NCBI GenBank assembly: GCA_947649225.1 | Contig: CANSQX010000011.1 | Coordinates: 1-35,679 of the forward strand | Source of the DNA: an uncultured Flavonifractor sp. | GTDB lineage: Bacteria; Bacillota; Clostridia; Oscillospirales; Oscillospiraceae | Length of the DNA stretch: 35,679 nt | Reading direction: 5' to 3' | Shown: in pieces, positions 13,873 to 34,589 of the stretch | Layout: each line of letters opens with the position of its first letter | Numbering within the stretch: the first letter of the stretch is position 1 | The notes under the pieces: model-generated | What the model saw: the letters and a program-made list of their open reading frames with translations, nothing else | What the model was told of the DNA's origin: nothing | Databases searched by the model: none | Position numbers and translations under genes: made by a program

Positions 13873-14060
13873 GGGGAGTCGTGCTCTTTGGAGAAATCGG
13901 AGCGCTCCTGCTGGGTCTTGCGGCTGCCGCGCTCTTTGGCAACCTGTGGTTTCATGGGGTGGAGGCCGTGCTGCGCCGTATCAAACCGCTGGTGCTCCGC
14001 CGCAGGAATCCCCCGGTATGGCGTCCGCTCACCCCGGACGAGGAGGAGAGACATGTTTGA
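13869..14060 (+). CDS. Small single-pass membrane protein
   Basis: Predicted membrane protein of 63 residues. A hydrophobic helix (GEIGALLLGLAAAALFGNLWF, about residues 8-28) is followed by a basic stretch (VLRRIKPLVLRRRNPPVW) that would stay in the cytoplasm. GTG 13869 overlaps the preceding stop (GTGA); GTG 13881 is an alternative. The end overlaps the ATG of the DUF1266-like gene by eight bases, which, with both overlaps in phase for coupling, argues it is real despite its size. It may anchor the neighbouring soluble proteins at the membrane; that is inference. Confidence 0.6.
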   Translation: MRGVVLFGEIGALLLGLAAAALFGNLWFHGVEAVLRRIKPLVLRRRNPPVWRPLTPDEEERHV

Positions 14061-15234
14061 CATCAATGAGATCAGAAAACGGGCCCAGCAGGCCAGCGGG
14101 CAGGCGGCCGCCTACATGGAGCAGGCCCTGGAAAAGAGCGGGGAGCTGACCAGCAGGGCCCAGATATCCGCTGCGGAACCGGCTCCGGCGGCGTCCGCCG
14201 CCGAAGCGGAGGCGCAGATCAACGCCAACCGCCGGCGGCAGGTGGAGATTCTCGGCCAGCTCTTTGACCCCGCGTGCATGGCCCATATGGAGTCCGGCCA
14301 GGCGCTTCTGCACGGCATGGTCCAGGAGCAGGCGGCCGCCGCAGCCGCAGCCGCTACGGAGCAGGTGCTGGGCCGGCTGCTCGGGGAGGACATGGGCGTA
14401 ATCGCGGCGGCGCTGGAGACGCTGGACCTGGAGGACGGCGGCGAGGAGGAGGACCCCGCCCTTGATCCGGCGTGGGAGCAGCGCCTCTATGCCGTGCTGG
14501 AGGCGGCCATGGCCCGGCTGGAGGCCCTGCCGGAGCCGGAGCCGGTCCCCTATCCCAAGGACGGCAGGAACTGGGCGCGGTTCGGCATTCTGCTGTCCGG
14601 AATCGTCTCCAAGCTGAACGGGCACAGCCTGGACGGCATGGATGTGGAGGAGCACGTCCCTGTTCTGGAGCAGCAGGTGGTCTCCATCGTGCGCCGCTCC
14701 TGGGGGATCGGCGGCCGCAGCGATCTGCTGGATACGATCCGCTATTTGGCGCAGGAGGGCTATATCCTGCGGTATCAGCGCTATGCCGGGGCGGCCGCGC
14801 CGGAGGAGCTGATGGACGGGGACATGGACGGAGAGGACCGCGCGTCCGCCGCACGGGCGTGGCGCTTTGCCCAGCGGTACAAGGGGCGGTACGCCCCCGG
14901 CTTCATGGCCGGGTGGGACATCGGCAGGGCGGCCATGCTGGCGCGCTGGGGCTGCTATCTGGGCTGGATCACCGAGGGCGAGGCGTCCGGCATCCTCTGG
15001 GACCTCTCCCAAAAGGCGGCGGGCGAGCTGCACAGCTGGCGGGAATTCGCCCAGTCCTATCTCTTCGGTGGTCTGATGTGGAAGCTGCTGTGCGGCGGAA
15101 GCTCCGCCGAAAGCTACCTCGGCTACCTGGCGGACGCGGCCACAGATCTGCTGACCGGCACGCCGGAGCAGGAGGGTGGGCAGTGGCGCGCCTGTCCCTG
15201 GCCCGCACCGAGGAAAATCGGGTTTGCGGGGTGA
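14053..15234 (+). CDS. DUF1266-like protein
   Basis: Protein of 393 residues. The N-terminal third is Ala/Glu-rich and probably helical (IRKRAQQASGQAAAYMEQAL; a run of nine alanines near 97-105). The C-terminal half (about 215-370) has the tryptophan pattern I associate with DUF1266: WGIGGRSDLLDTIRYL, then GWDIGRAAMLARWGCYLGWI and SWREFAQSYLFGGLMW. No signal peptide. AGGAGGAGAG immediately precedes ATG 14053. Function of DUF1266 is not established; family members are often next to phage-like, secretion-related or housekeeping genes of unknown role. Third gene of the 13387-15234 module. About 170 bases after its stop are featureless before repeat copy C. Confidence 0.72.
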   Translation: MFDINEIRKRAQQASGQAAAYMEQALEKSGELTSRAQISAAEPAPAASAAEAEAQINANRRRQVEILGQLFDPACMAHMESGQALLHGMVQEQAAAAAAAATEQVLGRLLGEDMGVIAAALETLDLEDGGEEEDPALDPAWEQRLYAVLEAAMARLEALPEPEPVPYPKDGRNWARFGILLSGIVSKLNGHSLDGMDVEEHVPVLEQQVVSIVRRSWGIGGRSDLLDTIRYLAQEGYILRYQRYAGAAAPEELMDGDMDGEDRASAARAWRFAQRYKGRYAPGFMAGWDIGRAAMLARWGCYLGWITEGEASGILWDLSQKAAGELHSWREFAQSYLFGGLMWKLLCGGSSAESYLGYLADAATDLLTGTPEQEGGQWRACPWPAPRKIGFAG

Positions 15235-15701: not shown

Positions 15702-15738
15702 CCAAAAAAGCAGGAGGGAAGGGGCAGCCCTTCCCTCC
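15702..15738 (-). terminator. Intrinsic terminator of the nine-gene catabolic operon
   Basis: Perfect 11-bp arms 15713-15723 and 15728-15738 enclose a 4-base loop; on the minus strand the stem is followed by TGCTTTTTTGG. It lies 52 bases after the permease stop and closes the long minus-strand operon. Confidence 0.9.
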
Positions 15739-15790
15739 CGGTATGATCGCTTGATCAAGGAAAACGAACGGACCTGTCGAGAGCACCGGC

Positions 15791-17269
15791 TCATGTCCGG
15801 GGCAATATCGCGTCCAGCAGCGGAAACAGGATACATCCGATGACGGTATACAGCACGACGGCCGTGCCGGTATGCTTGATGATCGCTCCCTTAGTCAGAT
15901 CCGCATTGCTGTACATCAGCGGACTGACGGCCGCCGAGCCGGGCAGGACAAAGCCGAAGCAGGAGGAGTAGATGCACACGATGGCCGCGACATTCATATT
16001 GCAGCCCGCCGCCATACAGATGGGCGCGGCGATGGGGATCATCATCATGCCGATGCCGGTATTGGAGGCCACGTTGGTCAGCACCACCGCTGTGATCAGG
16101 ATGAACATATAAACCAGGGCGGCGGGCTTGCCCTCCATGACAGGCAGCAGGGTCCGGGCAAAGAAGGCCGTAAAGCCGGCCTCCTCCGCCGTCAGCGCGG
16201 AGGACAGGCAGGTGGCGATGCCCACCAGCAGGATAGGCCCCCAGACCATCCCGCCCATCACTTTGCCGAAGGCCAGGATTGGCGTGCCTTCCCGGGTCCG
16301 GATGACACAGAGGAGCACCACCGCAATCCCAAAGATCCCGGGCAGGGACAGCGTGGTTATGACCCGGGCAAGGAGCCCTTCCCCCCGCAGGTAGTTGACG
16401 GCGATGGACAACAGCAGGCTGATCGCCAGCGCGGCGATGATGACCTTCTGACTGGGATTGAGCCGGTAGTCCTCCTGGGCCGGCGCTGCGGAGCGGTAGT
16501 TCCGGACGGGGGTCATGTCCACATGAAACAGCGGCTTCATCAGCAGCACCAGGACCGCCAAAATCAGAACGCCCACCAAAAACGTGACGGCAATATACAG
16601 CCCGAAGCGGATCGGGACTCCGCCGGCGTGGTTCATAAAGGCGCTGCACAGGGCGTACTGCCAGCTCTTCATCGGGATCACAAACTCCCCCAGGCTGGTG
16701 GCCACCACGGAGTAGACGGTCATGGCGGTGAAATAGGGATGGCGCATGGACACGCCCATCTCCTTGGCCATACGGCGCAGCACCGTCCAGCAGATGAATA
16801 TCATGGCAAAGGCGAAGGTAACTGAGGAAATCAGGAAAAAGGCCAGCAGGAACATAAACGTGAACAGGTAGGGCCTGCCCTCCCATATGTTCCGGCTGAT
16901 CAGCCACTTGGCCATTTTCTCATCGGCCCCGGTGGCCGACAGGCCGGAGGTCATGGCGGTGACGCAGATCATATTAAAGACCATGAAGCTGCCCAAAGAG
17001 GCGGACACGGCGCCGGCTACCGTGGTGTAGCCGGTACAGCCCAGCGCCACAATGGCCAGAATGCTGGGCCATATGGTCCCGCCCACCGTGGACCACAGGA
17101 TGACAACCCCCACGAACACGCCCAGGACCCCCATGCCTGCCGGGGTAATCTCAGGCGCAAACGGCGGAAGATACCGTCCAAGGAACATCAGCGCCATACA
17201 GGCGGTGATGACGCCGTAATAGAGGGGCGGCGAGTGCCGCTTCCCCTGCGCGCGCGTTTTCTCCGACAT
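15791..17269 (-). CDS. DASS/SLC13-type anion permease
   Basis: Integral membrane transporter of 492 residues with about 11-12 hydrophobic helices. The C-terminal half contains the SNT signature of divalent-anion:sodium symporters (NVASNTGIG, near 398); the corresponding first-half motif is diverged (ATSLGEF). The family moves dicarboxylates, tricarboxylates, sulfate or similar anions. Start ATG 17267-17269 has GGGAGGG seven bases upstream and removes an implausible 86-residue upstream extension. It is the last gene of the operon, 40 bases after the Fe-S protein gene. It probably imports the pathway substrate or exports an acidic product; the exact anion cannot be inferred. Confidence 0.82.
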   Translation of the reverse strand: MSEKTRAQGKRHSPPLYYGVITACMALMFLGRYLPPFAPEITPAGMGVLGVFVGVVILWSTVGGTIWPSILAIVALGCTGYTTVAGAVSASLGSFMVFNMICVTAMTSGLSATGADEKMAKWLISRNIWEGRPYLFTFMFLLAFFLISSVTFAFAMIFICWTVLRRMAKEMGVSMRHPYFTAMTVYSVVATSLGEFVIPMKSWQYALCSAFMNHAGGVPIRFGLYIAVTFLVGVLILAVLVLLMKPLFHVDMTPVRNYRSAAPAQEDYRLNPSQKVIIAALAISLLLSIAVNYLRGEGLLARVITTLSLPGIFGIAVVLLCVIRTREGTPILAFGKVMGGMVWGPILLVGIATCLSSALTAEEAGFTAFFARTLLPVMEGKPAALVYMFILITAVVLTNVASNTGIGMMMIPIAAPICMAAGCNMNVAAIVCIYSSCFGFVLPGSAAVSPLMYSNADLTKGAIIKHTGTAVVLYTVIGCILFPLLDAILPRT

Positions 17270-17309
17270 ACCAATTCCCTCCCTGCAAAGTTTGGCGGGC
17301 GGCGTCTCT

Positions 17310-18158
17310 CTATCGCCAGGCGCCGCAGGCGACCGGCTTGGCGGGCAGCCGCGGCAGCCCCTCGGAGACCGCCTTGATCGCCCCCTGGGGGCACGCGGCG
17401 CGGCACTGCCCGCAGGCCTCGCACAGGGTGCGGTCCAGGACGTGGATAAAGCCCTTCCGGCCCGCAATGGCCTCCTCCCCGCAGCTGTCCGCACAGGCCT
17501 GACAGCCGGTGCACAGCGCCGGATCAATATAATAGCTGATAAAGGGCCTGCACACCAGCGCAGGGCAGATCTTTTTTGTGATATGGGCCTCGATCTCCGG
17601 CCGGAACAGGGCGAGGGCGCTGAGAAGGGAGCCGCCCGCCGCCTGCCCCAGCGTACAGGCGCACTGGGTCCTCATCGCCCCGCCCAGCTCCGTCAGACGG
17701 TCCAGATCGGCGCTCCGGCCCTTTTTGGCCGCGATGTCGGAGAGGATGAGGTGGAGCTGGTAGGCGCCCTCCCGGCCGAACACACACCGGCCGCAGGCGG
17801 CGGTCCGCATGTCGAGGGCCAGCCGGGCCAGCAGATCCACCATACACGCCTCCCGTCCGGCGAGGCAGACGGTCTCGCAGTCCAGCTCCAGCTCCCGGTC
17901 CGGCTCGCAGGGGAAGAACTGTCCCGCCGGCCAGCCCAGATACACGGCCCTGATCCGGTCCGGCTGTACACCGTAGCGGTCCAGCAGCTCCGACAGCTTC
18001 AGGCGGCCGGGCAGCTTGTGTACGGCCTCGCCGCCGGGACCGGACACCAGAATCTGACGGCGCTGCCCCGGGTCAAAGGCGGGGCGCTCCGGCGCCGCCG
18101 GGGAGCTGCCTATGGGGCCGGCGCGGGCCGGTGATATCAGGCGGATGGTCCCACTCAT
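17310..18158 (-). CDS. NuoF-like Fe-S subunit (SLBB + 4Fe-4S) fused to a 2[4Fe-4S] ferredoxin
   Basis: Electron-transfer protein of 282 residues. Residues about 35-100 resemble the SLBB domain of NuoF; about 115-200 resemble the NuoF Fe-S-binding helical bundle; the C-terminus holds two ferredoxin motifs (CTGCQACADSC and CEACGQCRAACP). The FMN/NADH-binding domain of true NuoF is absent. In the NuoF cluster motif the third cysteine is replaced: the sequence reads CGRCVFGREG where CxxCxxC is usual, so that cluster may be lost, altered or use another cysteine (CAC follows at the usual fourth position). The ATG overlaps the stop of the NuoG-GltD fusion gene (TGATG), so the two are very likely partner subunits carrying electrons to or from ferredoxin. 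Confidence 0.85.
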   Translation of the reverse strand: MSGTIRLISPARAGPIGSSPAAPERPAFDPGQRRQILVSGPGGEAVHKLPGRLKLSELLDRYGVQPDRIRAVYLGWPAGQFFPCEPDRELELDCETVCLAGREACMVDLLARLALDMRTAACGRCVFGREGAYQLHLILSDIAAKKGRSADLDRLTELGGAMRTQCACTLGQAAGGSLLSALALFRPEIEAHITKKICPALVCRPFISYYIDPALCTGCQACADSCGEEAIAGRKGFIHVLDRTLCEACGQCRAACPQGAIKAVSEGLPRLPAKPVACGAWR

Positions 18159-20269
18159 CACACGCCCTCCCTTCCGTTGGGGTATTCATTCCAGAATTTG
18201 TTGCGGCCCAGCCGGAGGCGCAGATCGCACTGGAGGCACCGGGCAGCCTCGCAGGCGCCCGCTCCGGCGCCGGGCATCCGCTCCACCGGGGCAAAATCCC
18301 ATCGCCGGTCCTGGGCCGGGCGGCGCTCCGCCGCCAGCCGCTTCCGCCCGGCGAAGCCCTCCGTCCGGCCAAGATACGGATCCGGCTCCGACGGGGCCCG
18401 CAGCGGCTCGGTCAGGTCGCCGTCCCCGCCCAGCCAGCGGTCCATGGACTGGGCGCACCGGCGGCCGGCGGCGGCGGCCTCGATGACGGACCGGGTGCCC
18501 GTCACCACGTCTCCCGCCGCAAAGACTCCGGGAACGGAGGCGCCGCCGTCCTCCCCGGTCTGGAGGTACGCGCCGCGGCACAGGGCGAGGCCCATATCTG
18601 CGGCGCCGTCGGGGCTCTGCCCCACCGCAAAGATCACCGTGTCCGCCGGCAGAAGCCGCTCCGTCCCCTCCCGGGGGGTGATCACCGCCCGGCGGTTCTC
18701 GTCAAAGTGGAAGGCGGCCACCTCCTGGACCTGGACGCCGGAGACCCGCTCCTCTCCCTCGATGGACAGGAAGGTCACGCCGCTGCACAGCCCGACGCCC
18801 TCGTCCAGGGCTTCGTCAATTTCCTCCGGAGAGGCGGTCATTTCGTCCCGGCGCTCCAGGCAGGCGACGGTCACCTGCTTCGCTCCGCAGCGCAGCGCGG
18901 TGCGGGCGCAGTCCATGGCCACGTTGCCGCCGCCCAGCACCACCACCCGCTCGCCCACCGCAGGAATGGGGCCCAGCCGCGCCTCCCGCAGGAAGGCGGT
19001 ATTGACCAGCACGCCGGGCAGATCCCGCCCCTTCAGCGGCAGAACCGTCCCCTTATGGGTACCGGCGGCCACCAGCACCGCGTCAAAGCCCTGCTCCAGC
19101 AGCTCGGCGGGCCGCTCGATCCGCACGCCGGTGCGCAGCGCGACGCCGCCCTCCAGGATCGCCGCGATTTCCCCGTCCAGCAGCGCGTCCGGCAGGCGGT
19201 AGGCCGGAATGCCCACCCGCAGCTGGCCTCCGGGCTTGGGCAGGGCCTCGAATACCGTGACGTCGTGCCCCTTCATCGCCAGATAGTAGGCGGCCGTTAG
19301 CCCCGCCGGGCCGCTGCCCACCACGGCGGCCCTCCGGCCGGTGGCCGGGTCCCGGCGGCGGCGGGTTTTCCACTGCTCGCCCCCGGCCTCCGCCGCCGTG
19401 CGCTTGAGGCGGCAGATGGAGAGGGGCTCATTGACCGCGCCCCGGCGGCAGCGATCCTCGCAGGGGTGCGGGCAAATACTGCCCAGCACGGCGGGGAAGG
19501 GCGTCCGCTCCCGGATGACGGCGGCGGCGGCGGCCCAATCGCCCCTGGCCGCGCTGCGCAGATAGGCCGGGATGTCGATCTCGCCGGGGCAGGCGCTCCG
19601 GCAGGGCACCAGCGCCTTGATCCTTGGCAGGGCCGGGTCCAGGAGGCCGGCCGCGTCGGTAATGGCCCCGGTGGGGCACACCTCCACGCACGCGCCGCAG
19701 AAGCGGCACCCCGCCTCCGCCAGGGATACGCCGCCCTCCGTCCCGATCCGCACGCCCTGCCTGTCCCGGCGGTAGTCCAGGACCTTGACCCCCCGCAGCT
19801 CGTTGCAGGCCCGGACACAGCGCCCACAGCGGATGCACCGGACAAACAGGTGGCGGATCAGCGGATTGGAGGCGTCCTCGGGCATCGGACGGCCCTTGGT
19901 GCGCCAGCGCTCGGCCGAGGCGTCGAGATACTGGTAGAGGGATTGTAATTCACAGTTCCCGTATTTGGGGCAGTCCGTACACTCCGAGGGGTGGCTGGCC
20001 AGCATGAGCTCCATGGACATCCGGCGGATGTGGAGGGCCTCCTCCGTGGCGGTGAGGACCTCCATCCCGTCCTCCGCCGGGGTCTCACAGGCCGGGACCA
20101 CGCCGTCCCGGCCCTTGACCTGAACCACACACAGGCGGCACCCTCCGGCGGCCTCCAGATCGGGGTGCTTGCACAGGTGGGGGATGTAGATATCGTGGGC
20201 CAGAGCGGCCTGAAGGACGGTCTGCCCCTCCGCCGCCTCAATGGTACGGCCGTCAATGGTAAGCCTCAT
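18158..20269 (-). CDS. NuoG N-terminus / GltD-like flavoprotein fusion oxidoreductase
   Basis: Multi-cluster NAD(P)H oxidoreductase of 703 residues. Residues 1-80: 2Fe-2S domain (HLCKHPD, GGCRLC, ACET). About 93-107: HxxxCxxCxxxxxC cluster (HPSECTDCPKYGNC). About 143-205: two 4Fe-4S motifs (CIRCGRCVRAC and CRFCGACVEVC). About 225-295: GltD/DPD-type Fe-S domain (CPHPCEDRCRRG). The rest is a GltD-like flavoprotein: FAD site VVGSGPAG, NAD(P)H site VVVLGGGNVAMDC, and C-terminal FAD motif GVFAAGDVV. Such fusions link NAD(P)H with low-potential carriers, and the architecture recalls Nfn/Stn-type transhydrogenases; bifurcation cannot be shown from sequence. AGGA precedes ATG 20269. Overlaps the next subunit gene. 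Confidence 0.9.
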   Translation of the reverse strand: MRLTIDGRTIEAAEGQTVLQAALAHDIYIPHLCKHPDLEAAGGCRLCVVQVKGRDGVVPACETPAEDGMEVLTATEEALHIRRMSMELMLASHPSECTDCPKYGNCELQSLYQYLDASAERWRTKGRPMPEDASNPLIRHLFVRCIRCGRCVRACNELRGVKVLDYRRDRQGVRIGTEGGVSLAEAGCRFCGACVEVCPTGAITDAAGLLDPALPRIKALVPCRSACPGEIDIPAYLRSAARGDWAAAAAVIRERTPFPAVLGSICPHPCEDRCRRGAVNEPLSICRLKRTAAEAGGEQWKTRRRRDPATGRRAAVVGSGPAGLTAAYYLAMKGHDVTVFEALPKPGGQLRVGIPAYRLPDALLDGEIAAILEGGVALRTGVRIERPAELLEQGFDAVLVAAGTHKGTVLPLKGRDLPGVLVNTAFLREARLGPIPAVGERVVVLGGGNVAMDCARTALRCGAKQVTVACLERRDEMTASPEEIDEALDEGVGLCSGVTFLSIEGEERVSGVQVQEVAAFHFDENRRAVITPREGTERLLPADTVIFAVGQSPDGAADMGLALCRGAYLQTGEDGGASVPGVFAAGDVVTGTRSVIEAAAAGRRCAQSMDRWLGGDGDLTEPLRAPSEPDPYLGRTEGFAGRKRLAAERRPAQDRRWDFAPVERMPGAGAGACEAARCLQCDLRLRLGRNKFWNEYPNGREGV

Positions 20270-20286
20270 AGATGCGTCCTCCCAGG

Positions 20287-21267
20287 TCAGAATGAAAAGG
20301 CCGCCGTATCCCGCAGGCCGGACGCGGCCAGCCAGGCGGCCGCCACATCCTGAACCGCCAGGCCGCAGCTCTCAAACAGCGTGACGGTCTCCCGGTCGCC
20401 CGCCGCCCGCCCGGCGCACCGTCCGGCAAAGACCGCGCCGATCTCGCCCGCGATCTGCTCCCGGGAGAAGGCTCCCTCCCGCATGGGGATCGCCAGATCG
20501 CCGGTGGCGCCCAGGGTGGCCTCGATCTGGTCCAGATAGACCCGGGCGCGGTCCAGCACCGAGCAATCCAGCTCCCGGGCGAAGGGGCTGCACGCGCCGA
20601 CGGCGTTCACATGGGCCCCGGGTGAGAGCCACGGGCCGAACAGGATGGGCTCCGACGCCTTGGTCACGGTACAGATCACATCCGCGCCAATGACCGCGCC
20701 CTCCGCCGTATCGTGCCGGAGCACGGCCGTGCCGGGGTGCTCCTCCCGCAGCCGGGCGCAGGCGCTCTCCGCCCGCGCGCAGTCGATGTCCCAGACCTGG
20801 ATCTCCCGGATGGGGCGGATTGCGCTGATCGCGGCGGCGTGGGCCATCGCCTGGGCCCCCGCGCCCAGCAGGCAGAGCACCGAGGCATCGGGCCGGGCCA
20901 GGACCTGGGTGGCTGCGGCGCTGGCGGCCGCTGTCCGCGCCGTGGTAATGAATTCGGCGGAGACGATGCTCCGCAGCGCGCCTGTCTCAATGTCGAAGAG
21001 CAGCACCGCGCTCTGGGCGGTGCCCGCCCCGGCGGCGGCCGGACCGGGGAAGATGGCCGTCTTGCAGCCGCAGACGCCATAGCGCGGCAGGGACGCCGCC
21101 ATCACGGCCAGAATATTCCGGTTCTCCTGGAACAGGGCGCTTCGGGGCAGCAGCCTGCCGCGCCCGGCGGCCAGGTCCTCGAACGCCTGCCGCATCACAG
21201 GGATCAGGGCGGGAATGGTCACCGCACTCCGAACCTGCGCGTCGGAGATCAGCTGGGTCTGATTCAT
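20287..21267 (-). CDS. Ornithine cyclodeaminase / mu-crystallin family protein
   Basis: NAD(P)-dependent cytoplasmic enzyme of 326 residues. The Rossmann motif LLGAGAQAMAHAAA sits near 132-145; flanking family features include SAEFITTARTAAASAAAT, a KTAIFPGP segment and the ATGDLAIP loop. The family includes ornithine cyclodeaminase, ketimine reductases and alanine/opine-type dehydrogenases, so the reaction could be amino-acid deamination or imine reduction. The ATG overlaps the stop of the upstream M20 gene (ATGA), indicating the two are co-expressed; deamidation followed by processing of the released amino compound would be one reading. Exact substrate not deducible. Confidence 0.88.
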   Translation of the reverse strand: MNQTQLISDAQVRSAVTIPALIPVMRQAFEDLAAGRGRLLPRSALFQENRNILAVMAASLPRYGVCGCKTAIFPGPAAAGAGTAQSAVLLFDIETGALRSIVSAEFITTARTAAASAAATQVLARPDASVLCLLGAGAQAMAHAAAISAIRPIREIQVWDIDCARAESACARLREEHPGTAVLRHDTAEGAVIGADVICTVTKASEPILFGPWLSPGAHVNAVGACSPFARELDCSVLDRARVYLDQIEATLGATGDLAIPMREGAFSREQIAGEIGAVFAGRCAGRAAGDRETVTLFESCGLAVQDVAAAWLAASGLRDTAAFSF

Positions 21268-22433
21268 ACGGGTCCCTCCGCGGACAGCAGGTCCAGCGCG
21301 GTCTGCACCAGCATAGCGCAGCCATAGGGCATGGCGTTCTCGTCAATGACCAGCTTGGGGCTGTGGCCGGGGTAGCGGCCGCCCACGCCCACCGTGAGGA
21401 AGCACGCCCTGCCGCACTTGGCGTAAGCGCCGAAATCCTCCGCTCCGGTGGTGCCGCGGACGGTGATCACCTTTCCGGGGTCTCCGGTGACCTTCTCCGC
21501 CGCCCGGAAGGCCACGGCGGTCATCCACGCATCGTTGACGACCGGCGGGATATTCTGCCCCCAGACCACCCCGGCGACGGCCCCGTGGGCCGCGGCGATC
21601 CCCTGGGCCAGCCTGACCATCTGCTCCTTGATCAGCGTCCGGACCTCCTCGGACTGATACCGCAGGGTGCCCTCCATCACGGCCTCGCCGGAGATGATGT
21701 TGCCCTTGGTACCCGAGTGCAGGCAGCCCACCGACACCACCGCCGTGTCCAGAGGGTTGATCCGGCGGGAGACGATGGTCTGGAGGGCCAGCACGATCTC
21801 GCCGGCGATGACCGTCGCGTCCACCCCCCCGGCCATCTGGGGCATCCCGGCGTGGTGGGCGGCGCCGGTGACCCGCAGGGTGAAGGACTCCGCCCCGGCC
21901 ATCTGGGGGCCGGGACGCCCGGAGATGGCCCCCACCTCGGTAAACTCCTTCACGTGCAGGCCGAAGAAGTAATCCACCCCCACGGCGGCCCCCTGCCGGA
22001 TGATGGTCTCCGCCCCGGTGCCGATCTCCTCGGCGGGCTGGAAGAGCAGCCGGACGGTTCCGGAAATCTGGTCCCGGTGCTCATTCAGCAGCCGGGCGGC
22101 CCCCAGCAGCATGGCGGTATGTACGTCGTGGCCGCAGGCGTGCATGACGCCTGCCCGTTCGGACGAAAAGTCCACGCCGGACGCCTCGTCCATGGGCAGC
22201 GCGTCGATGTCCGCCCGCAGGGCTACGGTGCGGCCGGGACGGTCCCCCCTGATCTCCGTCATCAGGCCGGTGGGCTGAAAGCGCGTGCAGGCCAGCCCCA
22301 GCTTGTTCAGCTCCCGCTCAATGCGGTCTGTGGTGTCGAATTCCTGCATACTCAGCTCCGGGTGCCGGTGGAGCTCCCGGCGGAATGCGATCATATCGTC
22401 CAAAATTTGGGTTGCCAATGCGCGGTAGTCCAT
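21264..22433 (-). CDS. M20D-family amidohydrolase / aminoacylase
   Basis: Metal-dependent amidohydrolase of 389 residues. Family marks: RRELHRHPELS near 18-28, RADIDALPM (73-81), metal site HACGHDVHTAM (98-108) with Cys100 and His102, the QPAEEIGTGAE glutamate pair near 136, the dimerisation-domain HHAGMPQMAGGVD, and the C-terminal HSPKLVIDE. M20D enzymes hydrolyse N-acyl amino acids, hippurate-like conjugates or indole-acetyl amino acids. In this operon it may release an amino acid from an acylated substrate before the cyclodeaminase-family enzyme acts; this is inference. Start ATG 22433; gap of 29 bases to the upstream hydrolase gene. Confidence 0.92.
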   Translation of the reverse strand: MDYRALATQILDDMIAFRRELHRHPELSMQEFDTTDRIERELNKLGLACTRFQPTGLMTEIRGDRPGRTVALRADIDALPMDEASGVDFSSERAGVMHACGHDVHTAMLLGAARLLNEHRDQISGTVRLLFQPAEEIGTGAETIIRQGAAVGVDYFFGLHVKEFTEVGAISGRPGPQMAGAESFTLRVTGAAHHAGMPQMAGGVDATVIAGEIVLALQTIVSRRINPLDTAVVSVGCLHSGTKGNIISGEAVMEGTLRYQSEEVRTLIKEQMVRLAQGIAAAHGAVAGVVWGQNIPPVVNDAWMTAVAFRAAEKVTGDPGKVITVRGTTGAEDFGAYAKCGRACFLTVGVGGRYPGHSPKLVIDENAMPYGCAMLVQTALDLLSAEGPV

Positions 22434-22462
22434 GCGTTTCCTCCGTTCTCTCGCGCCCGGGC

Positions 22463-23251
22463 TCAGAAGTTATCCCTCTCCTCCGGGAATATCCGGGGCA
22501 GCAGGCGGGCCAGGTTGGTAAACTCCTTGATGTTGTGCAGCAGCAGGGCGCGTGGCAGCTGCTCGGGCAGGCGTTCGCTGTCGAAGCGCCGGGGCTTCCC
22601 GCCGCTCAGGCACCAGCCGAACCAGAAGCGGGAGCGCAGCTCCACGCCGCCCTCCGCCGGGCGGACGAAGTGACAGGATATGGTGCGGCAGTCCTCCCCC
22701 GCCATGGCGATGATGGTGCCGCCGAAATCCCGCAGCTTTTCGGGGGAAAAGCCCATCTCCTGGGGCGGGATGAAGGGCACCGCCACATCCTTGGGCTCCG
22801 GCCCGAAGGCCTCGGTGATGTCGTGGGTGGTGTGCCAGTACTTCTCCCGGTAGGAGAGGGCGGGATTGCGCACCTGCTCCGGGTTGCGGGTCCGGCAGTA
22901 CAGGTGGTCCTCCCGATCCCAGATCTTGTAGCGCAGGCTGTCCAGACTGTGCCAGGCAAACCACCAGTCGAACATCTCGGGGGTGACGTCGGGCAGAAAC
23001 AGCAGATTGGCCATGTAGGCCGAGCCGTCCGGCAGGGCGCAGTAGCCCCGCTCGGCGGGCAGGTATCCGGGCTCAAACAGCAGGTCCACCTGATCGGGCG
23101 GGAGCACCTGCTCCGGCGTCAGCCGGGCGGCGGCCGCCCCGGCGTACACCTGGGGATCCACTGGGGCCATCTCCTCCAGGAAATATTTGTAGTAGCGCTT
23201 CTGCTTGTCCGCCTCGGTAACGGGGACAAGCCGGACCGGCGTCTCAGACAT
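22463..23251 (-). CDS. PhlG / phloretin-hydrolase-like C-C bond hydrolase
   Basis: Protein of 262 residues assigned to the DAPG hydrolase family, which contains 2,4-diacetylphloroglucinol hydrolase (PhlG) and the phloretin hydrolase of flavonoid-degrading gut bacteria. These zinc enzymes cleave a C-C bond next to a ketone on a polyhydroxylated ring. The supporting pattern is the Trp-rich FDWWFAWHSLDSLRYKIW segment (His101), then HTTHDITEAFG, and near the C-terminus LLHNIKEF (His239 and Glu243, spaced as the H-x3-E zinc pair). PhlG uses two His and two Glu; the second Glu here could be Glu136 or Glu147. GAGGAGG six bases before ATG 23251 removes a 40-residue upstream extension. The best clue to the operon substrate, but specificity cannot be read. 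Confidence 0.78.
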   Translation of the reverse strand: MSETPVRLVPVTEADKQKRYYKYFLEEMAPVDPQVYAGAAAARLTPEQVLPPDQVDLLFEPGYLPAERGYCALPDGSAYMANLLFLPDVTPEMFDWWFAWHSLDSLRYKIWDREDHLYCRTRNPEQVRNPALSYREKYWHTTHDITEAFGPEPKDVAVPFIPPQEMGFSPEKLRDFGGTIIAMAGEDCRTISCHFVRPAEGGVELRSRFWFGWCLSGGKPRRFDSERLPEQLPRALLLHNIKEFTNLARLLPRIFPEERDNF

Positions 23252-23312
23252 CAGAATCCTCCTCTCGCGGTATGCGCGGTGAATTTCATCCCCCTCTGCC
23301 GCCGGAACGCGG

Positions 23313-24542
23313 CTATTGGATCTCCTTGGCGAAGAACCAGCAGATCGCTGCAACCAGCGCCATAGGCGCAATCACATAGATGGTGCCGGTATAGCCCAGG
23401 AATTGAATCAGATAGCCCACCAGGGTGCTGCCGATCAGCATGGAGAGCCGGGCCGTGGTCTGGACCACGCCGTGGGCCACAGGGGTGTAGGAGGCGTCGC
23501 CGAAGATATCGGGGTAGCAGGAGTAGCTGGAGACGGTGACGGACGCGGGGGCCACGGCGTTCAGAACGATGAAGACCATAATCAGGTTACCGGGCAGGAT
23601 GGCCAGCAGCAGGTACATGACGGTAATGCCCACAAAGGAGGCGATGGCGGGTTTGCGTTTGGACTGGATGCGATCGGCCAGGATGCCGATGCCGATCATG
23701 ACAAAGGTGCGGATGGAGCTGGCCACGCTGGTCAGGCCGGCGGCGGCCACCGGGTCAATCCCCTTGGCCTCGGTGAGGAAGGTGGGGACATAGTTGTTGA
23801 AGCTGATCATCACAATGTTGAAAATGAACATTCCGATTGCGACCATCCACAGGGAGCGGCTGCGCAGCACCTCGGCCTTTTTGGTGCGCTGAAGCTCTGT
23901 GTTCCCCTGGGGCGCCCGGGGCGCAAAGGCGGCCAGGCTGGGCTCCCGCCACAGGAAGATCAGCATCACGGCGGCCATGATCACAAAGGCGGCGATGATA
24001 TAGGTATAGACGCCGCTCAGGCTGCCGGTGCGCTCTGCGATGCGGACGGACAGGTTGTAGTGGAGGACCTGCCCGGCGGTCATGCCGGCATTGACAATGG
24101 CGGTGGCGGTGGCGCGGGCGCCCTTGAAATAGGCCACAACCAGCGCGATGGTCAGGTTGGACAGGATGCCCATGCCGGCCCCCTCAATGACGCGGGAGAC
24201 GATGAGCACCATGAAGCTGCTGGTGTTGGCGGCGATGATATTGGCAAAGGCCATGATGAGAAAGCCGATCATGCCGGTCCATTTGGGCTTCCAGCTGCGG
24301 TTCATGTAGCCGATGGCGATGGCGAAGACAAAGCCGATGATATTGGTGGACGACATGAGCAGCCCCATCAGGCCGGTGTTGACGTCGTAGGAGGTCATCA
24401 CAAACTTCATGATCGGCGGGAACTTGAACATGCACAGGGAGGTGGCCGCCGTGGCGATGGTCATGACCACCATCATGGCGATGGGGTGGCAGTATCGCCT
24501 GGGCAGGCTGCTGTTTTCTGTGGAGACGGCTGCGGTTGTCAT
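23313..24542 (-). CDS. Major facilitator superfamily transporter
   Basis: Membrane transporter of 409 residues with about 12 predicted helices in two halves and the usual central cytoplasmic loop (about 195-225, ELQRTKKAEVLRSRS). The loop between helices 2 and 3 carries a diverged MFS motif (AIGYMNRSWKPKW), and its repeat in the second half reads GILADRIQSKRKP, a good match. GAGGGGG five bases before ATG 24542 selects this start and removes 20 upstream residues. Placed between the FAD reductase and PhlG-like hydrolase genes, it probably imports the neutral or conjugated substrate of the pathway. A second transporter of another family ends the operon. Confidence 0.92.
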   Translation of the reverse strand: MTTAAVSTENSSLPRRYCHPIAMMVVMTIATAATSLCMFKFPPIMKFVMTSYDVNTGLMGLLMSSTNIIGFVFAIAIGYMNRSWKPKWTGMIGFLIMAFANIIAANTSSFMVLIVSRVIEGAGMGILSNLTIALVVAYFKGARATATAIVNAGMTAGQVLHYNLSVRIAERTGSLSGVYTYIIAAFVIMAAVMLIFLWREPSLAAFAPRAPQGNTELQRTKKAEVLRSRSLWMVAIGMFIFNIVMISFNNYVPTFLTEAKGIDPVAAAGLTSVASSIRTFVMIGIGILADRIQSKRKPAIASFVGITVMYLLLAILPGNLIMVFIVLNAVAPASVTVSSYSCYPDIFGDASYTPVAHGVVQTTARLSMLIGSTLVGYLIQFLGYTGTIYVIAPMALVAAICWFFAKEIQ

Positions 24543-24594
24543 GGTTTCCCCCTCTTTCCTTTGTCGCAGGATTGGAAGGTACCCGCCGCCCTTC

Positions 24595-26079
24595 TTACCC
24601 AAGGGAGCGGAGATAGGCGGCGGCGTTCTCCGCAGCCATCCGGCCGCTGTTCAGGCAGAAGGCCATGGTATTGCCGCCCAAAATAAAGGGATAGGTATCG
24701 CCGTAGATGTCGCAGGCGTCGGTTCCGACGGCATACAGGCCCTTGATGGGGTAGCCGTCCTCGTTCACCGCCTCGGTCTTGTAGTTGATCTTGATGCCGC
24801 CGAAGGAGCCGTAGGCCCCGGGGAAGGACTGAAGGGAGTAGAACGGGCCCTTGCGGATGGGGCGCATAAACTGCCGGTCCTTGTTGAAGACGCTGTCAAA
24901 GCCGCCGTTGTCGCAGTCCGCATTGTACTGCTCCAGCGTCGCCCGGAGGCCGGGCAGGTCGATGCCCGCCTTTTCGCACAGCTCCTCGATGGTGTCCGCC
25001 TTGACGAAGTAGGGGTAGCCGGTCTCCAGGGCCTGCCCGGCCTCCTCGTCAAAGTGGTCGAACACGTCGGGGCCCTGGATGCCGAAGATGTCAATGCCGC
25101 GCTTTTTGTAGTGCTTCAGCAGTGCGGTGTCCATGATGGCGAAGCAGGTGTGGCCGGGCTGGCGGTTGATGGCGTTTCCGGTGGTGCAGGTATTGGCCAG
25201 GCAGTCCTCCGGCATGAACCGCTCCCCCAGCTTGTTGACCCAGAGCATGGGCTGGCGGAAGGCGCCCTCCAGGTTGAAGTGGTTGGTGTTGTCGGGGATC
25301 TGGTACATGAGATCCAGCCGGATGTCCCCGTGGGCCGCGCCCACCTCCCAGGCCATTTTGATGCCGTCCCCCACATTGCCGGGAATCCGGAAGGAGAAGA
25401 GATCCTTCCCCCAGGTCAGGCCGGTGAACTCTTTGATCATCTCGGGGTTGTCGCCAAAGCCGCCCGTGGCGAGGATCACCGCGCCGGCGCGCACCTCCAG
25501 CTCCTCGCCGTCCGCCGCCGCGGCCAGGACACCGGCAATGCGGCCGTCCTCCATGATGAGCTTTTTCCCCGGCGTCTCGGTCAGGATATTGACGCCCAGC
25601 TCCACGGCGCGCTCCGTCATGGCCTTGGTCATGCGGGCCGCCACCCGGGGGCCCAGCCGCCCGCCGTCCGCCGGTTTAACGGCGTGGCAGGTGCGCTCGG
25701 GCTCGGCATAGCTGCGCATACGGCTCGGGGTGTACAGCGTCGTGTTCCGGTAGACGAACTCCACGCCCATGTCCTCCAGCCACTCGATGGTGCTGGCGCT
25801 CTTACGGTAGTAGTCGTACACCAGCCGGGCGTCCACCATCCAGTGGGACCAGTGCATATGCTTGAGGAAGGCGTCGTCCGGGGTGAGGTTGTAGCCCACA
25901 TTGGCCTGGTGCCGGGTGCCGATGGCCAGGGGGCCCATTCCCATGCTGGCGGCGCCGCCGGTGACCTTGGACTTCTCCAGCGTGATGACCCGCAGTCCCT
26001 CCTCTGCGGCGGCGATGCTGGCGGCCAGGCCGGACAGCCCCGCCGCTACGACGGCGACGTCACATTCCATCTTTTTCAT
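24595..26079 (-). CDS. FAD-binding reductase of the fumarate reductase / FAD_binding_2 group
   Basis: Flavoprotein of 494 residues. N-terminal FAD site VVAAGLSGLAASIAAAEEG followed by LEKSKVTGGAASMG, an internal GAVILATGGFGDNPEM motif, and a C-terminal GLYAVGTDACDIYGDTYPF followed by ILGGNTMAF. The fold is that of fumarate reductase, urocanate reductase and ketosteroid dehydrogenases. Where fumarate reductases have catalytic His and Arg (PGVHHTMGG and HGANRLGGNA in the Shewanella enzyme, from memory), this protein reads PGAYGSFGG and YGDTYPFILGGN, so it is unlikely to use fumarate. A C=C reduction or desaturation of another, probably aromatic-conjugated, substrate is likely. No signal peptide; no attached haem or FMN domain, so electrons must come from a partner such as the Fe-S flavodoxin-like protein. 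GAGGTGAGAAC precedes ATG 26079. Confidence 0.87.
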   Translation of the reverse strand: MKKMECDVAVVAAGLSGLAASIAAAEEGLRVITLEKSKVTGGAASMGMGPLAIGTRHQANVGYNLTPDDAFLKHMHWSHWMVDARLVYDYYRKSASTIEWLEDMGVEFVYRNTTLYTPSRMRSYAEPERTCHAVKPADGGRLGPRVAARMTKAMTERAVELGVNILTETPGKKLIMEDGRIAGVLAAAADGEELEVRAGAVILATGGFGDNPEMIKEFTGLTWGKDLFSFRIPGNVGDGIKMAWEVGAAHGDIRLDLMYQIPDNTNHFNLEGAFRQPMLWVNKLGERFMPEDCLANTCTTGNAINRQPGHTCFAIMDTALLKHYKKRGIDIFGIQGPDVFDHFDEEAGQALETGYPYFVKADTIEELCEKAGIDLPGLRATLEQYNADCDNGGFDSVFNKDRQFMRPIRKGPFYSLQSFPGAYGSFGGIKINYKTEAVNEDGYPIKGLYAVGTDACDIYGDTYPFILGGNTMAFCLNSGRMAAENAAAYLRSLG

Positions 26080-26116
26080 GTTCTCACCTCAAATAGTTGA
26101 TAAATGGGGGCATACC

Positions 26117-27019
26117 TTACGGTCCGACCGGGGTAAATGCGCCGCGCAGGGGCTCCAGCGCCGCCTGCACCTGTTCCCGGTGCTCCCTCAGCCTGCCGTG
26201 GCCCCGGCGGATGGCGTCCAGGTGGCGCTTGTCGCCGTACTCCGACCAGCGGCACAGGTCGTAGCCCTGCTCCCAGGTGATCCGAAGGGCACCGTCCTCC
26301 TCCGTCACACGGGCCGCAATGTCGCAGGTGGGGCAGATCAGCCTGCCGTGCCGCAGCTGGAGATGGCTGCCGTGGCAGATGGGGCACACCTCCTCGGCGT
26401 CTCCCAGGTAGCAGTCCCGGCCCTGGTCCGCAAGCATGGCCTGGGCCAGATTCCGGCCCAGCCGGAAGGCCCGGTCCGTGAGCCCCTCCTCCAGGACCAC
26501 AGTGCCGGGGGCCGGGTGGAACTCGGCCAGCAGCTGGTCGGCCAGGTGCATCCGGCTGCCGCACAGCTCGGTGGCGGCAAAGTTGAGGATGGGCATCAAA
26601 AAGTTGGTCCAGTCCGAGCCCCCCACGCCGATGGTGGCCGCATAGCGGGCCTTTTCCCGGCATTTCTGCTTCAGCTGGCTCAGGAACCGGTGCTGGCGGT
26701 TGAGCATGTCCAGCATCCGCCCCGCCGCCGTCAGGTTGTAGCAGGGGGCCGCCAGGAGATAGCCGTCCGCCTCCAGGGCCAGCTTCACATAGGCGGAATA
26801 GCCGTCCGCCGACTCTGGAATGGCGCAGACGGAATCCCCTCCGTCCAGCACCTTTTTGGTGATGCAGACCTCACAGCCCAGGCAGGGCTTGATCTCGAAG
26901 TCCTGGAGCCGGATCAGCTGCACCTCGCAGCCCGCCTCCGCGGCCCCCCGCATGGCGTGCCGGAGGAGAACCTCGCAGTTCCCCATGCGGCGTCCGGCGC
27001 TTACCGCAAGAACCTTCAT
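26117..27019 (-). CDS. Fe-S flavodoxin-like protein with C-terminal zinc-ribbon / rubredoxin-like motif
   Basis: Electron-transfer protein of 300 residues, first gene of the operon. The N-terminal flavodoxin/NADPH-FMN-reductase fold opens MKVLAVSAGRRMGNCEVLL and continues with a cysteine cluster Cys46, Cys49, Cys52 and Cys65 (PCLGCEVC then SVC), like the motif of archaeal/clostridial iron-sulfur flavoproteins. Near 212-232 a CPIC...CPTC pair, about 17 residues apart, could bind iron or zinc. A Trp/charged tail follows. Start ATG 27019 has GGGAGG nine bases upstream; the earlier in-frame start lies within the promoter. It likely relays electrons between the NuoG-GltD complex and the FAD reductase encoded 37 bases downstream; this pairing is inferred from context. 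Confidence 0.85.
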   Translation of the reverse strand: MKVLAVSAGRRMGNCEVLLRHAMRGAAEAGCEVQLIRLQDFEIKPCLGCEVCITKKVLDGGDSVCAIPESADGYSAYVKLALEADGYLLAAPCYNLTAAGRMLDMLNRQHRFLSQLKQKCREKARYAATIGVGGSDWTNFLMPILNFAATELCGSRMHLADQLLAEFHPAPGTVVLEEGLTDRAFRLGRNLAQAMLADQGRDCYLGDAEEVCPICHGSHLQLRHGRLICPTCDIAARVTEEDGALRITWEQGYDLCRWSEYGDKRHLDAIRRGHGRLREHREQVQAALEPLRGAFTPVGP

Positions 27020-27068
27020 GTCTGTCAACCTCCCTCTCTGTCCATTCGCGTTCCTCAGATGATAAACC

Positions 27069-27126
27069 ATTATACCGGTGAATGCACAAAAAAGCATTGG
27101 CGCTGCGCCCCTTTTTGGTGTAATAT
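27069..27126. promoter_or_regulatory. Divergent promoter region between the catabolic operon and PucR-type gene
   Basis: For the minus-strand operon a perfect TATAAT (complement of 27069-27074) lies 50 bases before ATG 27019, without a good -35, suggesting regulated use. For the plus-strand regulator TTGGCG (27097-27102) and TAATAT (27121-27126) are 18 bases apart. A GCACAAA heptamer (27084-27090) lies just upstream of the minus -10, where a bound regulator would affect polymerase. Confidence 0.55.
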
Positions 27127-27137
27127 CTACATAGGGC

Positions 27138-27153
27138 TTTGTGCACTTTGTGC
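27138..27153 (+). promoter_or_regulatory. Tandem TTTGTGC repeats in the regulator leader
   Basis: TTTGTGC at 27138-27144 and again at 27147-27153, nine bases apart, lie just after the expected plus-strand start and before the GAGGAG ribosome site. The same heptamer forms a perfect dyad at 8452-8470. It may be the binding site of a PucR-type regulator (autoregulation), which is inference. Confidence 0.4.
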
Positions 27154-27177
27154 GATTTTATTTGAGGAGCGGTCAAA

Positions 27178-28698
27178 ATGAACGTTACCTGCGGTATGCT
27201 GGAAGATTTTTTCTCCGATCAGGGGTGGACCGCCCGGGGCAATCCCGCCGCCCGGGGGCGGTCCTACCGGGGTGTCCGCCTCTGGTACGGCGGGTGCAGT
27301 CCGGAGGCGGATATCTTGTATGTCGCGGACGGGTCGGATACCCCGGAAGGCCTCCCGCCGCTGAACCTCTGCCTGCTGGGGAGCGGCCCAGTCCCTGCGG
27401 CCTGGCTGGTGGAGGCCCCCTGCGGCCTCCTGGCGTTCTACGCTGCCCTCCAGGCCTTTTTTGAGGGGCTGGCCGAATGGGACAGGAGGCTCTCCGAGCT
27501 GCTGCTGGCCAACGGCTCCATGCAGGAGATCCTGGATTGCAGCGGCCCGATCTTGCGGAACCCCTGTTTTTTTCAAAATGAGCAGTTCGTCGTACTTGCC
27601 CAGTATGGCACGGTTACGCAGGAGGAAAACTCCTACTTCTATGAGACGCTCCAGAATGGCCGTGCGCCCCTGCGCCTGTTTGAGGCCCTGCTGGCCATCC
27701 CCGCCCCCCTTCGGGACAGCTACACGCCGTCGCGCAGCGTCCAAACGGTGCAGGTGCTCTCCAAATACAACGAGCTGCTCGGCAACTGCTTTGTCGACGG
27801 GCAGCCGGTGCTGCGCCTGTGTATGCTGTGTACGGTGCGCTTCGGCACCGGCATACAGGATCTGGTCGCCCACCTGATGGGGCGCATGGAAAACAGCCCC
27901 AGTATGCAGCGTTGGGTTGTCCACCATACCGCCGCCAGCGATCTGCTGTTCAGCCATATCATCGAAAATCCCACGGCGTCCGATATCGCAGAGACCGCCA
28001 GGAGCCTGGGCCTGCACCTGTATGACCGGTTCTGCGTGGTGGAGATCTCCTTTGGCCTTCAGCCCGCCAACGCCTCCTCCACGCTGAGCAAGCTCCGAAT
28101 GCTCCACCCAGGTATCCATTTCTTCCTGTACAGCGACCAGCCCTACGCCCTGCTTGGCATCGCCCAAAACCGTTCTGGCGGACGCACGCTCCAGAATCTC
28201 CGGCAATTCCTCTACTCCAGATTGAACCCCCTGGGCGCATCCTACGGATGCAGCGACGACTTCTCCGAGATCGCCGCCCTTGGGGCGGGCTGCACACAGG
28301 CCGGATATGTCCTAAAAATGTCCGGCCTGGCCGGCGCCTTCTCCAACTACATCACCGTACAGGAAAAGGAGTCGCTGACCTATCGGGATGTGATGGCCGC
28401 CCATATCCTCCAGACCTTTTTTGAGCGCTATGAATTTGAGCGCTACTGCCCGGATTCCTTTCTCCGTATCATCGTGGACGACAGAAATACAGGGGGGAAT
28501 AATCTGGAGCTGCTCTACACCTATCTGTGCCACGAATGCAATGCTACAGCCACAGCCCGTATCCTGCATATGCACCGGAACAATGTCATCTACCGCATCA
28601 ACAAGCTGGAGGAGCGCTATCATCTGGATCTGTCTTCCAGCGGGCAGCGCCTCCTTCTCCAGCTGATCTGCCTGGCGGTGGGATACCGGAACCATTAG
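27178..28698 (+). CDS. PucR/CdaR-type regulator divergent from the catabolic operon
   Basis: DNA-binding regulator of 506 residues, transcribed away from the nine-gene operon and very likely its controller. The C-terminal helix-turn-helix matches the PucR family (ATARILHMHRNNVIYRINKLEERYHL). The central region (about 270-400) resembles the GGDEF-like domain of CdaR-type regulators; the N-terminal 250 residues are unrecognised and presumably sense the substrate. It has the same layout and near-equal length as the regulator at 10449-12002 but is clearly diverged from it. GAGGAG eight bases upstream supports ATG 27178. Followed by an intrinsic terminator. Confidence 0.88.
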   Translation: MNVTCGMLEDFFSDQGWTARGNPAARGRSYRGVRLWYGGCSPEADILYVADGSDTPEGLPPLNLCLLGSGPVPAAWLVEAPCGLLAFYAALQAFFEGLAEWDRRLSELLLANGSMQEILDCSGPILRNPCFFQNEQFVVLAQYGTVTQEENSYFYETLQNGRAPLRLFEALLAIPAPLRDSYTPSRSVQTVQVLSKYNELLGNCFVDGQPVLRLCMLCTVRFGTGIQDLVAHLMGRMENSPSMQRWVVHHTAASDLLFSHIIENPTASDIAETARSLGLHLYDRFCVVEISFGLQPANASSTLSKLRMLHPGIHFFLYSDQPYALLGIAQNRSGGRTLQNLRQFLYSRLNPLGASYGCSDDFSEIAALGAGCTQAGYVLKMSGLAGAFSNYITVQEKESLTYRDVMAAHILQTFFERYEFERYCPDSFLRIIVDDRNTGGNNLELLYTYLCHECNATATARILHMHRNNVIYRINKLEERYHLDLSSSGQRLLLQLICLAVGYRNH

Positions 28699-28973: not shown

Positions 28974-30533
28974 TCAGCCGGAGTGGAAGCGGCTGCTCCA
29001 ATCTGTCTTTAAGCGCCGCAGGTCCAATTTCCCGTTGGCAGACAGCGGGAACCGCTCCATACGGCAGAGGACGGCAGGAATTTTGAAGGCAGCCAGATTT
29101 TTTTGCATCCATGCGCGCAGATCGGCTTCCCGATATGCCGCGCCTTCCCGGACCACTACACAGGCAATTACCTGCTCTCCCAGGACCTCGTGCGGGACGC
29201 CAAACACCTTGACATCCAAGATGGGCTCGTAAGCCTGGATCACCGACTCAATTTCCAGCGGAGTGATATCCTCTCCGCCTCGTATGATAATATCCTTTTT
29301 CCGGCCGGTCAGCGTAATGGAGCCGTCCGGATTGCGCCGTCCCAGGTCGTCTGTGTGGAGCCACCCCTGCCCGTCTATTGCCGCAGGCCGGCAGCCCGGG
29401 GGATAAAATCCCTGCATGACGTTATAGCCGCGAACCACCAGTTCCCCCGCCTCCCCGGTGTCCAGCCGCCGGCCGGTATCGGGGGATACGATCTCAACCT
29501 GGATGTGGGGCAGGGGGCGTCCCACCGTGCCGGCGAGCTGGGTGAGCGTACTGTTATGGTCCGTGTTGCAGATGCAGGCGCCCTCTGTCTGACCGTAATT
29601 GATCATAAATTCCGTCTGTGGAAGAACACGCTGCAATTCCGCCATCTGACGCTCCAGCACCGGCGCGCCGCCCAGGACGCCGAGCCGGACACCGGCCATA
29701 CGGTCGGCATCAAAAGCTCCGCTGCGGATCAATGCCAGGTAACTGGTGGGAACCCCATTCAAAATGCTGCAGCCGTGCCGGCTGATGCATTGGAGGAGCT
29801 GGGCGCTCCGCAGGCCCTCCGGAATTACCAGAGAGGCCCCGGCATACAGGGCCGGCAGAAAGCTGCCGCATAGGCAGAAGATATGAAAGAGCGGCGTGGA
29901 GAGGCAGATCCTGTCCTCCATACGGATGCCGAGCGTTTCCGCCATACTAACAGCGTTGTTTACCATGCTGTAGTGGGTCATCATCACGCATTTCGGCTGC
30001 TTGGTGCTGCCCGATGTAAAGAGCAGGCAGCAGACCTCACAGCAGTTTCCGGCAAGCTGTGCCGGCCGGAAGCGCCCTTCGGTACATCTGCGGCGGCGGA
30101 CCGCCGGCTCCGTCCGCATGTCCACCGCCCGCCGCGCTCCGGCGCCAACCGCCCGCATGGCATATACCGGAAGATCCGGCCGGTGTTCCAGCTCCGGACA
30201 GTCCCCAAACAGCAGCCAATCCACGCGGCCGGTCCTCAGAACCTCAGAGAGCTCCCGCTCGGTATAGTGGTTATTGATCAGGACTGCCACCGCCCCCAGC
30301 TTGACCACCGCCAAAAAAGCCAGTATCCAATCCAAGCTGTTTCCGCCCCAGATTCCGACATGATCGCCCCGGCCGATCCCCCGGCCGGCAAGGGATTCTG
30401 CTGCGGCGTCGGAGAGCAGTCCGATTTCCCTCCAGGAATACCGCTCCTGAGTGGTCTCCACCGCACAGCACATGCCGAAACGCAAAACGGCCCGGTCCAG
30501 AAGGGAAGGAATCGTTTCCCTGCATAGCGTCAT
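28974..30533 (-). CDS. Acyl-CoA synthetase (AMP-forming)
   Basis: Cytoplasmic ligase of 519 residues in the ANL superfamily that activates a carboxylic acid as acyl-AMP and then acyl-CoA. Motifs: phosphate loop LLFTSGSTKQPK near 170-181, NYGQTEG (A5) near 318, GWLHTDDLG (A7), then TGRKKDIIIRGGEDITP (A8 hinge), and the C-terminal lysine in SANGKLDLRRL near 505. The specificity pocket cannot be assigned from sequence alone; aromatic, medium-chain and short-chain acids are all possible. GGGGACAGG lies just before ATG 30533. Last gene of the TRAP/CoA-transferase operon, 37 bases after the UroD-like gene. Confidence 0.92.
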   Translation of the reverse strand: MTLCRETIPSLLDRAVLRFGMCCAVETTQERYSWREIGLLSDAAAESLAGRGIGRGDHVGIWGGNSLDWILAFLAVVKLGAVAVLINNHYTERELSEVLRTGRVDWLLFGDCPELEHRPDLPVYAMRAVGAGARRAVDMRTEPAVRRRRCTEGRFRPAQLAGNCCEVCCLLFTSGSTKQPKCVMMTHYSMVNNAVSMAETLGIRMEDRICLSTPLFHIFCLCGSFLPALYAGASLVIPEGLRSAQLLQCISRHGCSILNGVPTSYLALIRSGAFDADRMAGVRLGVLGGAPVLERQMAELQRVLPQTEFMINYGQTEGACICNTDHNSTLTQLAGTVGRPLPHIQVEIVSPDTGRRLDTGEAGELVVRGYNVMQGFYPPGCRPAAIDGQGWLHTDDLGRRNPDGSITLTGRKKDIIIRGGEDITPLEIESVIQAYEPILDVKVFGVPHEVLGEQVIACVVVREGAAYREADLRAWMQKNLAAFKIPAVLCRMERFPLSANGKLDLRRLKTDWSSRFHSG

Positions 30534-30570
30534 CGCCTGTCCCCTTTCATGGCGTCAATCCTGTTGGCGG

Positions 30571-31599: not shown

Positions 31600-31615
31600 T
31601 TCTAATCCTCCGAAC

Positions 31616-33181: not shown

Positions 33182-33225
33182 AGGTCCCCCTCCACAACCA
33201 AATTTACCCACCGCAGGAGCAGGCC

Positions 33226-34563: not shown

Positions 34564-34589
34564 CGCGTTTACACCTCCCCATCCCTCTC

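Follow-up and report, generated by a model that had tools for sequence, protein, structure and literature searches.

An FLR-family flavoprotein encoded together with a PhlG/phloretin-hydrolase-family enzyme in a PucR-linked operon of an uncultured Flavonifractor sp., with a probable role in anaerobic polyphenol or aryl ketone catabolism

A stretch of 35,679 nucleotides from an uncultured Flavonifractor sp. (assembly GCA_947649225.1, contig CANSQX010000011.1; the whole stretch analysed, hereafter the window) carries nine minus-strand genes, lettered A to I in transcription order, between an ATG at 27019 and a stop at 15791. These genes probably constitute a PucR-controlled operon by which a plant polyphenol, or an aryl ketone related to one, would be broken down anaerobically, first by reduction and then by hydrolysis. 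From homologies, intact zinc ligands and gene linkage in other genomes we infer the class of substrate, all reactions and which way the electrons flow. One catabolic unit with a reduction, NAD(P)H/Fe-S electron input and a PhlG-type C-C hydrolysis had been proposed in the initial annotation and is supported by the conserved linkage. The full novelty claimed for the pathway was not upheld, since FLR-type and PHY-type enzymes are a known flavonoid toolkit (PMC7862272). No description of an operon that adds its own electron-input genes and amide/imine enzymes to these enzyme classes came up in the literature searched, and the operon is regarded as a variant of known machinery.

In the proposed pathway the MFS carrier (C) and/or the DASS carrier (I) would transport the substrate or an acidic product. 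Proteins G and H would accept electrons from NAD(P)H at a GltD-type domain and relay them via Fe-S clusters to B and/or A, which would reduce C=C bonds of the substrate with FAD (B) and FMN (A). The zinc hydrolase D would then cleave the C-C bond adjoining an aryl ketone, giving a phloroglucinol-type ring, which would probably enter a phloroglucinol pathway partly encoded elsewhere in the genome, and an arylpropionate-type acid. The least certain step would be the action of E and F on a part of the substrate that carries an amide or imine. If this reading is correct, the operon would add to the plant compounds that anaerobes are known to open, here with a PHY-type hydrolase.

Operon structure and the zinc hydrolase

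With the best starts, the intergenic gaps from A to I are 37, 52, 61, 29, -4, 17, -4 and 40 bases, and purine-rich ribosome-binding sites precede the gene starts. The gene number, strand, first ATG and maximal gap of 61 bases agree with the initial annotation, as do the 3' intrinsic terminator and the divergent regulator gene at 27178. Two of the three stop/start overlaps reported there are secure, each of 4 bases (E/F and G/H); the third requires TTG 24602 as the start of the MFS gene. The terminator (15711..15740, minus strand) lies directly past gene I and consists of a 13-pair stem and loop followed by CTTTTTT. The PucR-type regulator gene (27178..28698, plus strand; Pfam HTH_30) is separated from the start of gene A by 158 bases, and homologues with 39-40% identity occupy the same position at two of the orthologous loci described below (L090 and L091). 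A promoter scan of the operon gave no site clearly above chance, by which a single transcript is neither proved nor disproved, and an Rfam search of the window gave zero matches.

Gene D (22463..23251, minus strand; 262 aa) encodes a predicted zinc-dependent C-C hydrolase of the PhlG/phloretin hydrolase family, scoring 210.6 bits against PF18089 (DAPG_hydrolase; gathering score 22.7). Alignment to PDB entries 5xe5 and 3hwp shows that all four zinc ligands are intact (H116, E147, H240 and E244), in correspondence with residues which we take to be H129, E160, H270 and E274 of PhlG. The Tyr and His equivalent to PhlG Y121 and H214, site numbers that are likewise assumed, are also kept. Gene D differs from PhlG itself in falling far under the cut-off of the PhlG equivalog NF047887 (81.4 bits, cut-off 600), in having F at the Y229 position, and in operon partners unlike those of other PhlG loci. 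Loss of PhlG substrate residues specific to the window was rejected, the Y229 to F change being common to all intact clostridial relatives examined.

A PhlG relative is present in 69 of 400 genomes of the same family. In most loci examined, PhlG stands next to a flavoprotein of the succinate dehydrogenase/fumarate reductase type or carries it as an N-terminal fusion (67 of 93 copies in one tally, 23 of them fused); the fused proteins have 816-928 aa. Fusions with PhlG at the C-terminus of such a flavoprotein were seen in many gut and rumen genomes (L034, L038, L039, L042, L043, L046, L047, L054, L056, L059-L062, L067 and L070), and a literature search found no description of them. Only weak matches to this partner flavoprotein were found in the genome of the window. 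Genes of the anaerobic phloroglucinol cluster (PMC10470551) lie near 17 of the 93 related PhlG copies examined; they are not within the operon of the window, and part of the set occurs elsewhere in its genome. At some loci a second PhlG-family copy has substitutions at several or most of its zinc ligands (L148:5162, L152:4920, L158:5157, L163:30 and L168:4890). These copies adjoin an intact copy and a fumarate-reductase-type flavoprotein and are possibly non-catalytic partners.

Flavoprotein A and the redox module

Gene A (26117..27019, minus strand; 300 aa; Pfam FMN_red) encodes an FLR-family FMN ene-reductase-like protein with a C-terminal zinc-ribbon-like domain. The sole match in a phmmer search of the PDB was the flavone reductase FLR of Flavonifractor plautii (7d38, E 6e-23), the alignment running through the flavodoxin-like N-terminal domain into part of the C-terminal extension. 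The initial annotation had called a product of the gene set an Fe-S flavodoxin; this is rejected for gene A on homology, FLR being its sole solved relative. The full-length architecture is that of FLR. Of the FLR residues with flavin or substrate roles (G146, S147, W149, H271 and I275), the first three, in the GGSDW flavin loop, have equivalents in gene A, and the substrate-side H271 and I275 are kept as an H-x3-I motif conserved throughout the family alignment; the match around H271 was judged via the 54.5% orthologue L212, the FLR letters there being lacking. Identity to FLR is 26% over 265 residues, under the limit for FLR membership in PMC7862272, which asks for 30% identity or more to the F. 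plautii enzyme with coverage of 80% or more. In the tree, gene A and its PhlG-linked orthologues L089, L090, L091 and L276 form one clade (support 100/99), and the true FLR clade is separate (support 100/100). Gene A is, on alignment and tree, an FLR-family protein with an altered pocket and at most a putative flavone reductase. An AlphaFold prediction from a four-row alignment was unusable (mean pLDDT 42).

Gene A might instead be an electron-carrier flavoprotein that passes electrons to B and does not itself reduce the substrate. Its distance from FLR, its frequent position next to B, and the His in place of FLR G106, a residue important for activity and still Gly in L212 of the true FLR clade, are in keeping with such a role. 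It is nevertheless judged unlikely, as the protein has the complete FLR architecture with the C-terminal domain and the H-x3-I motif, matched no other PDB family, and had no ferredoxin-type domain reported by Pfam.

Gene B (24595..26079, minus strand; 494 aa) encodes a FAD_binding_2 flavoprotein and is the most conserved protein among the orthologous operons (84-87% identity in three loci). Its best family is that of the VprA/flavocytochrome-c-type FAD reductases, relatives of fumarate reductase. Against NF053717, the NCBIfam model closest to it (vinyl phenol reductase, VprA), gene B scored 312 bits, under the equivalog cut-off of 600. Gene B also differs in having no Arg at the fumarate reductase TTRDK motif (alignment to 1qo8), a residue with a role in that enzyme.

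Genes G (18158..20269, minus strand; 703 aa) and H (17310..18161, minus strand; 283 aa) were assigned by domain searches and are linked to each other. G joins a NuoG-type Fe-S N-terminus to a GltD-type NAD(P)H/FAD domain, and H combines the NuoF C-terminal 4Fe-4S domain with two ferredoxin clusters. In these clusters and domains they resemble multi-cluster NAD(P)H oxidoreductases (NfnA, HydA-type and NuoG-type subunits), from which they differ in that H has no Nuo51 FMN domain, present in a homologue at L275, and that G and H contain no hydrogenase or formate dehydrogenase domain.

Among 20 fetched loci of B homologues, G lies nearby in 13 and an FLR-family gene in about 11; the genomes are related and some contigs are cut short, so that the counts are not independent. 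B, G and H recur as a block in the family; PhlG is mostly missing from it, and an FLR-family gene often accompanies it. At two loci a member of the true FLR clade stands beside B, G and H: L250 (A-B-G-H) and L261 (A, H, G and B side by side), their FLR-family genes being 47% and 53% identical to FLR. The matter is of interest since flavone breakdown in the gut begins with flavone reductase. FLR is reported to be unable to take electrons straight from NAD(P)H, and its electron chain is described as still to be worked out (PMC7862272); a literature search found no described electron donor. Because they are linked to FLR-family genes and FLR cannot use NAD(P)H directly (PMC7862272), B, G and H are concrete, good candidates for the missing electron supply, named by a recurring neighbourhood that includes L250 and L261. 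More tentatively, and with some doubt on our part, B, G and H could form a dedicated NAD(P)H-to-flavin chain for FLR-family ene-reductases, coupled in the window to a PHY-family hydrolase acting on a polyphenol or aryl ketone substrate outside the assigned pathways.

Related loci and competing explanations

The complete nine-gene order was found in no other genome or locus examined, and orthology of the whole set, whose conservation had been suggested as a test, was rejected. Genes A, B and D are kept together in three orthologous loci on contigs of metagenome-assembled genomes (L089, L090 and L091). The order at L089 is A, B, MFS, PhlG and M20D, followed by the contig end; at L090 and L091 it is divergent PucR, then A, B, PhlG, ornithine cyclodeaminase and DASS. 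A second locus in the genome of L091 (G402:C4; L276/L279) is rearranged, with H, G, a GntP-type permease, A, a weak PhlG-like gene and PucR on the minus strand and MFS, PhlG, B, a second PucR and an OYE-type gene on the divergent side, all redox genes, PhlG, MFS and PucR lying inside about 12 kb. At G116:C16 (L253), A, H, G, B and a divergent PhlG whose zinc ligands are intact share one strand. This locus also holds GH3, Gfo/Idh/MocA and xylose-isomerase-like genes, a gene set that is reminiscent of polyphenol-glycoside breakdown (judged from PMC11170127). Conservation of the hydrolase with the redox genes, a check set beforehand, was for the most part borne out: it held for A and B in the three orthologues and for all redox genes at G402:C4, and G and H are missing locally at L090 and L091.

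Several observations weigh against polyphenol or aryl ketone catabolism by the whole operon. L090 and L091 are locally without G, H, MFS and M20D; G homologues with 49-53% identity are encoded elsewhere in the genomes of L089, L090 and L091. The identity of gene A to FLR is only 26%, with the pocket changes G106 to H, D103 to N, E91 to N and K92 to L. A search for phloroglucinol reductase found none convincing (best SDR 32%) in a genome that is 80.7% complete, in which absences are weak evidence. Finally, E and F are nitrogen-type enzymes, ill-suited to ordinary flavonoids, which suggests an amide or imine part of the substrate or a side task.

Gene E (21264..22433, minus strand) encodes an M20D amidohydrolase of the aminoacylase type with a 77% orthologue in L089, and gene F (20287..21267, minus strand) a probable imine reductase of the ornithine cyclodeaminase/mu-crystallin family with 56-57% orthologues in L090 and L091 (both by Pfam/NCBIfam). 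An alternative substrate would be an aromatic conjugate that contains nitrogen, such as a hydroxycinnamoyl amide or an N-acyl derivative of an aromatic amino acid. M20D would cut the amide, F would handle the amino part, A and B would reduce the cinnamoyl C=C bond, and D would cut a beta-diketone or aryl ketone. E and F directly follow PhlG and each is retained in different orthologues; they are unmatched in the FrdA/PhlG/phloroglucinol loci and the B-G-H loci except for one 31% M20 match in L095; and the best NCBIfam model of gene B is a vinyl phenol reductase. Set against this, no orthologue examined keeps both E and F (L089 ends at the contig end), family names do not fix substrates, and to our knowledge no pathway joins PhlG to amides. 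Such a conjugate is held to be an improbable substrate.

That the operon merely packs together small independent functions, namely a redox module (A, B, G and H), PhlG and the amino-acid enzymes E and F, each with its own substrate, is the least probable explanation: many genomes have the redox module and no PhlG, PhlG mostly occurs without the redox module, and MFS, E, F, G and H vary between orthologues, but A, B and D stay together in three orthologues and are regrouped with G and H in another order at G402:C4 and G116:C16, and the nine genes are co-directional and closely spaced, overlap at two points and are followed by a single terminator.

Genome context and flanking genes

The genome of the window contains three PhlG-family genes. 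Contig C100 carries PucR, two OYE-type reductases, MFS, PhlG and a FAD_binding_2-ferredoxin protein; the OYE-type reductases beside PhlG may be compared with the canonical flavonoid cluster (FLR, CHI, enoate reductase and PHY). Contig C19 repeats the redox module (A' 28%, B' 56%, G' 49% and H' 40%), and contig C5 holds a gene of the true FLR clade (54.5%). Contig C107 encodes a C-terminal DPGCH fragment (84%) and TAL (62%), and contig C60 a HOHDH homologue (54%). The third PhlG-family gene, on contig C59 (L053), has as its neighbour a protein in which molybdopterin oxidoreductase and iron-only hydrogenase domains are combined.

Two further arrangements were seen in other genomes. At L275, in the genome of L089, PGR, HOHDH and DPGCH are accompanied by G, H, genes for CoA transferase subunits and an FLR-like gene. 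Genus g23 has an FLR-like gene, a gene for an OYE-type reductase and PhlG, in that order.

The remaining genes of the operon encode transporters assigned by Pfam. Gene C (23313..24542, minus strand) is an MFS transporter with an 81% orthologue in L089, and gene I (15791..17269, minus strand; start ATG 17269) is a DASS/CitMHS-type anion transporter with 65% orthologues in L090 and L091. Convergent with the operon, a DUF1266 protein with no assigned function is encoded on the plus strand at 13888-15234. A second co-directional set lies on the minus strand at 28974-35117 and comprises an acyl-CoA ligase, a UroD/MtaA-like protein, a CoA transferase and TRAP transporter subunits; UroD-like genes, of which this set holds one, are frequent neighbours of PhlG in relatives.

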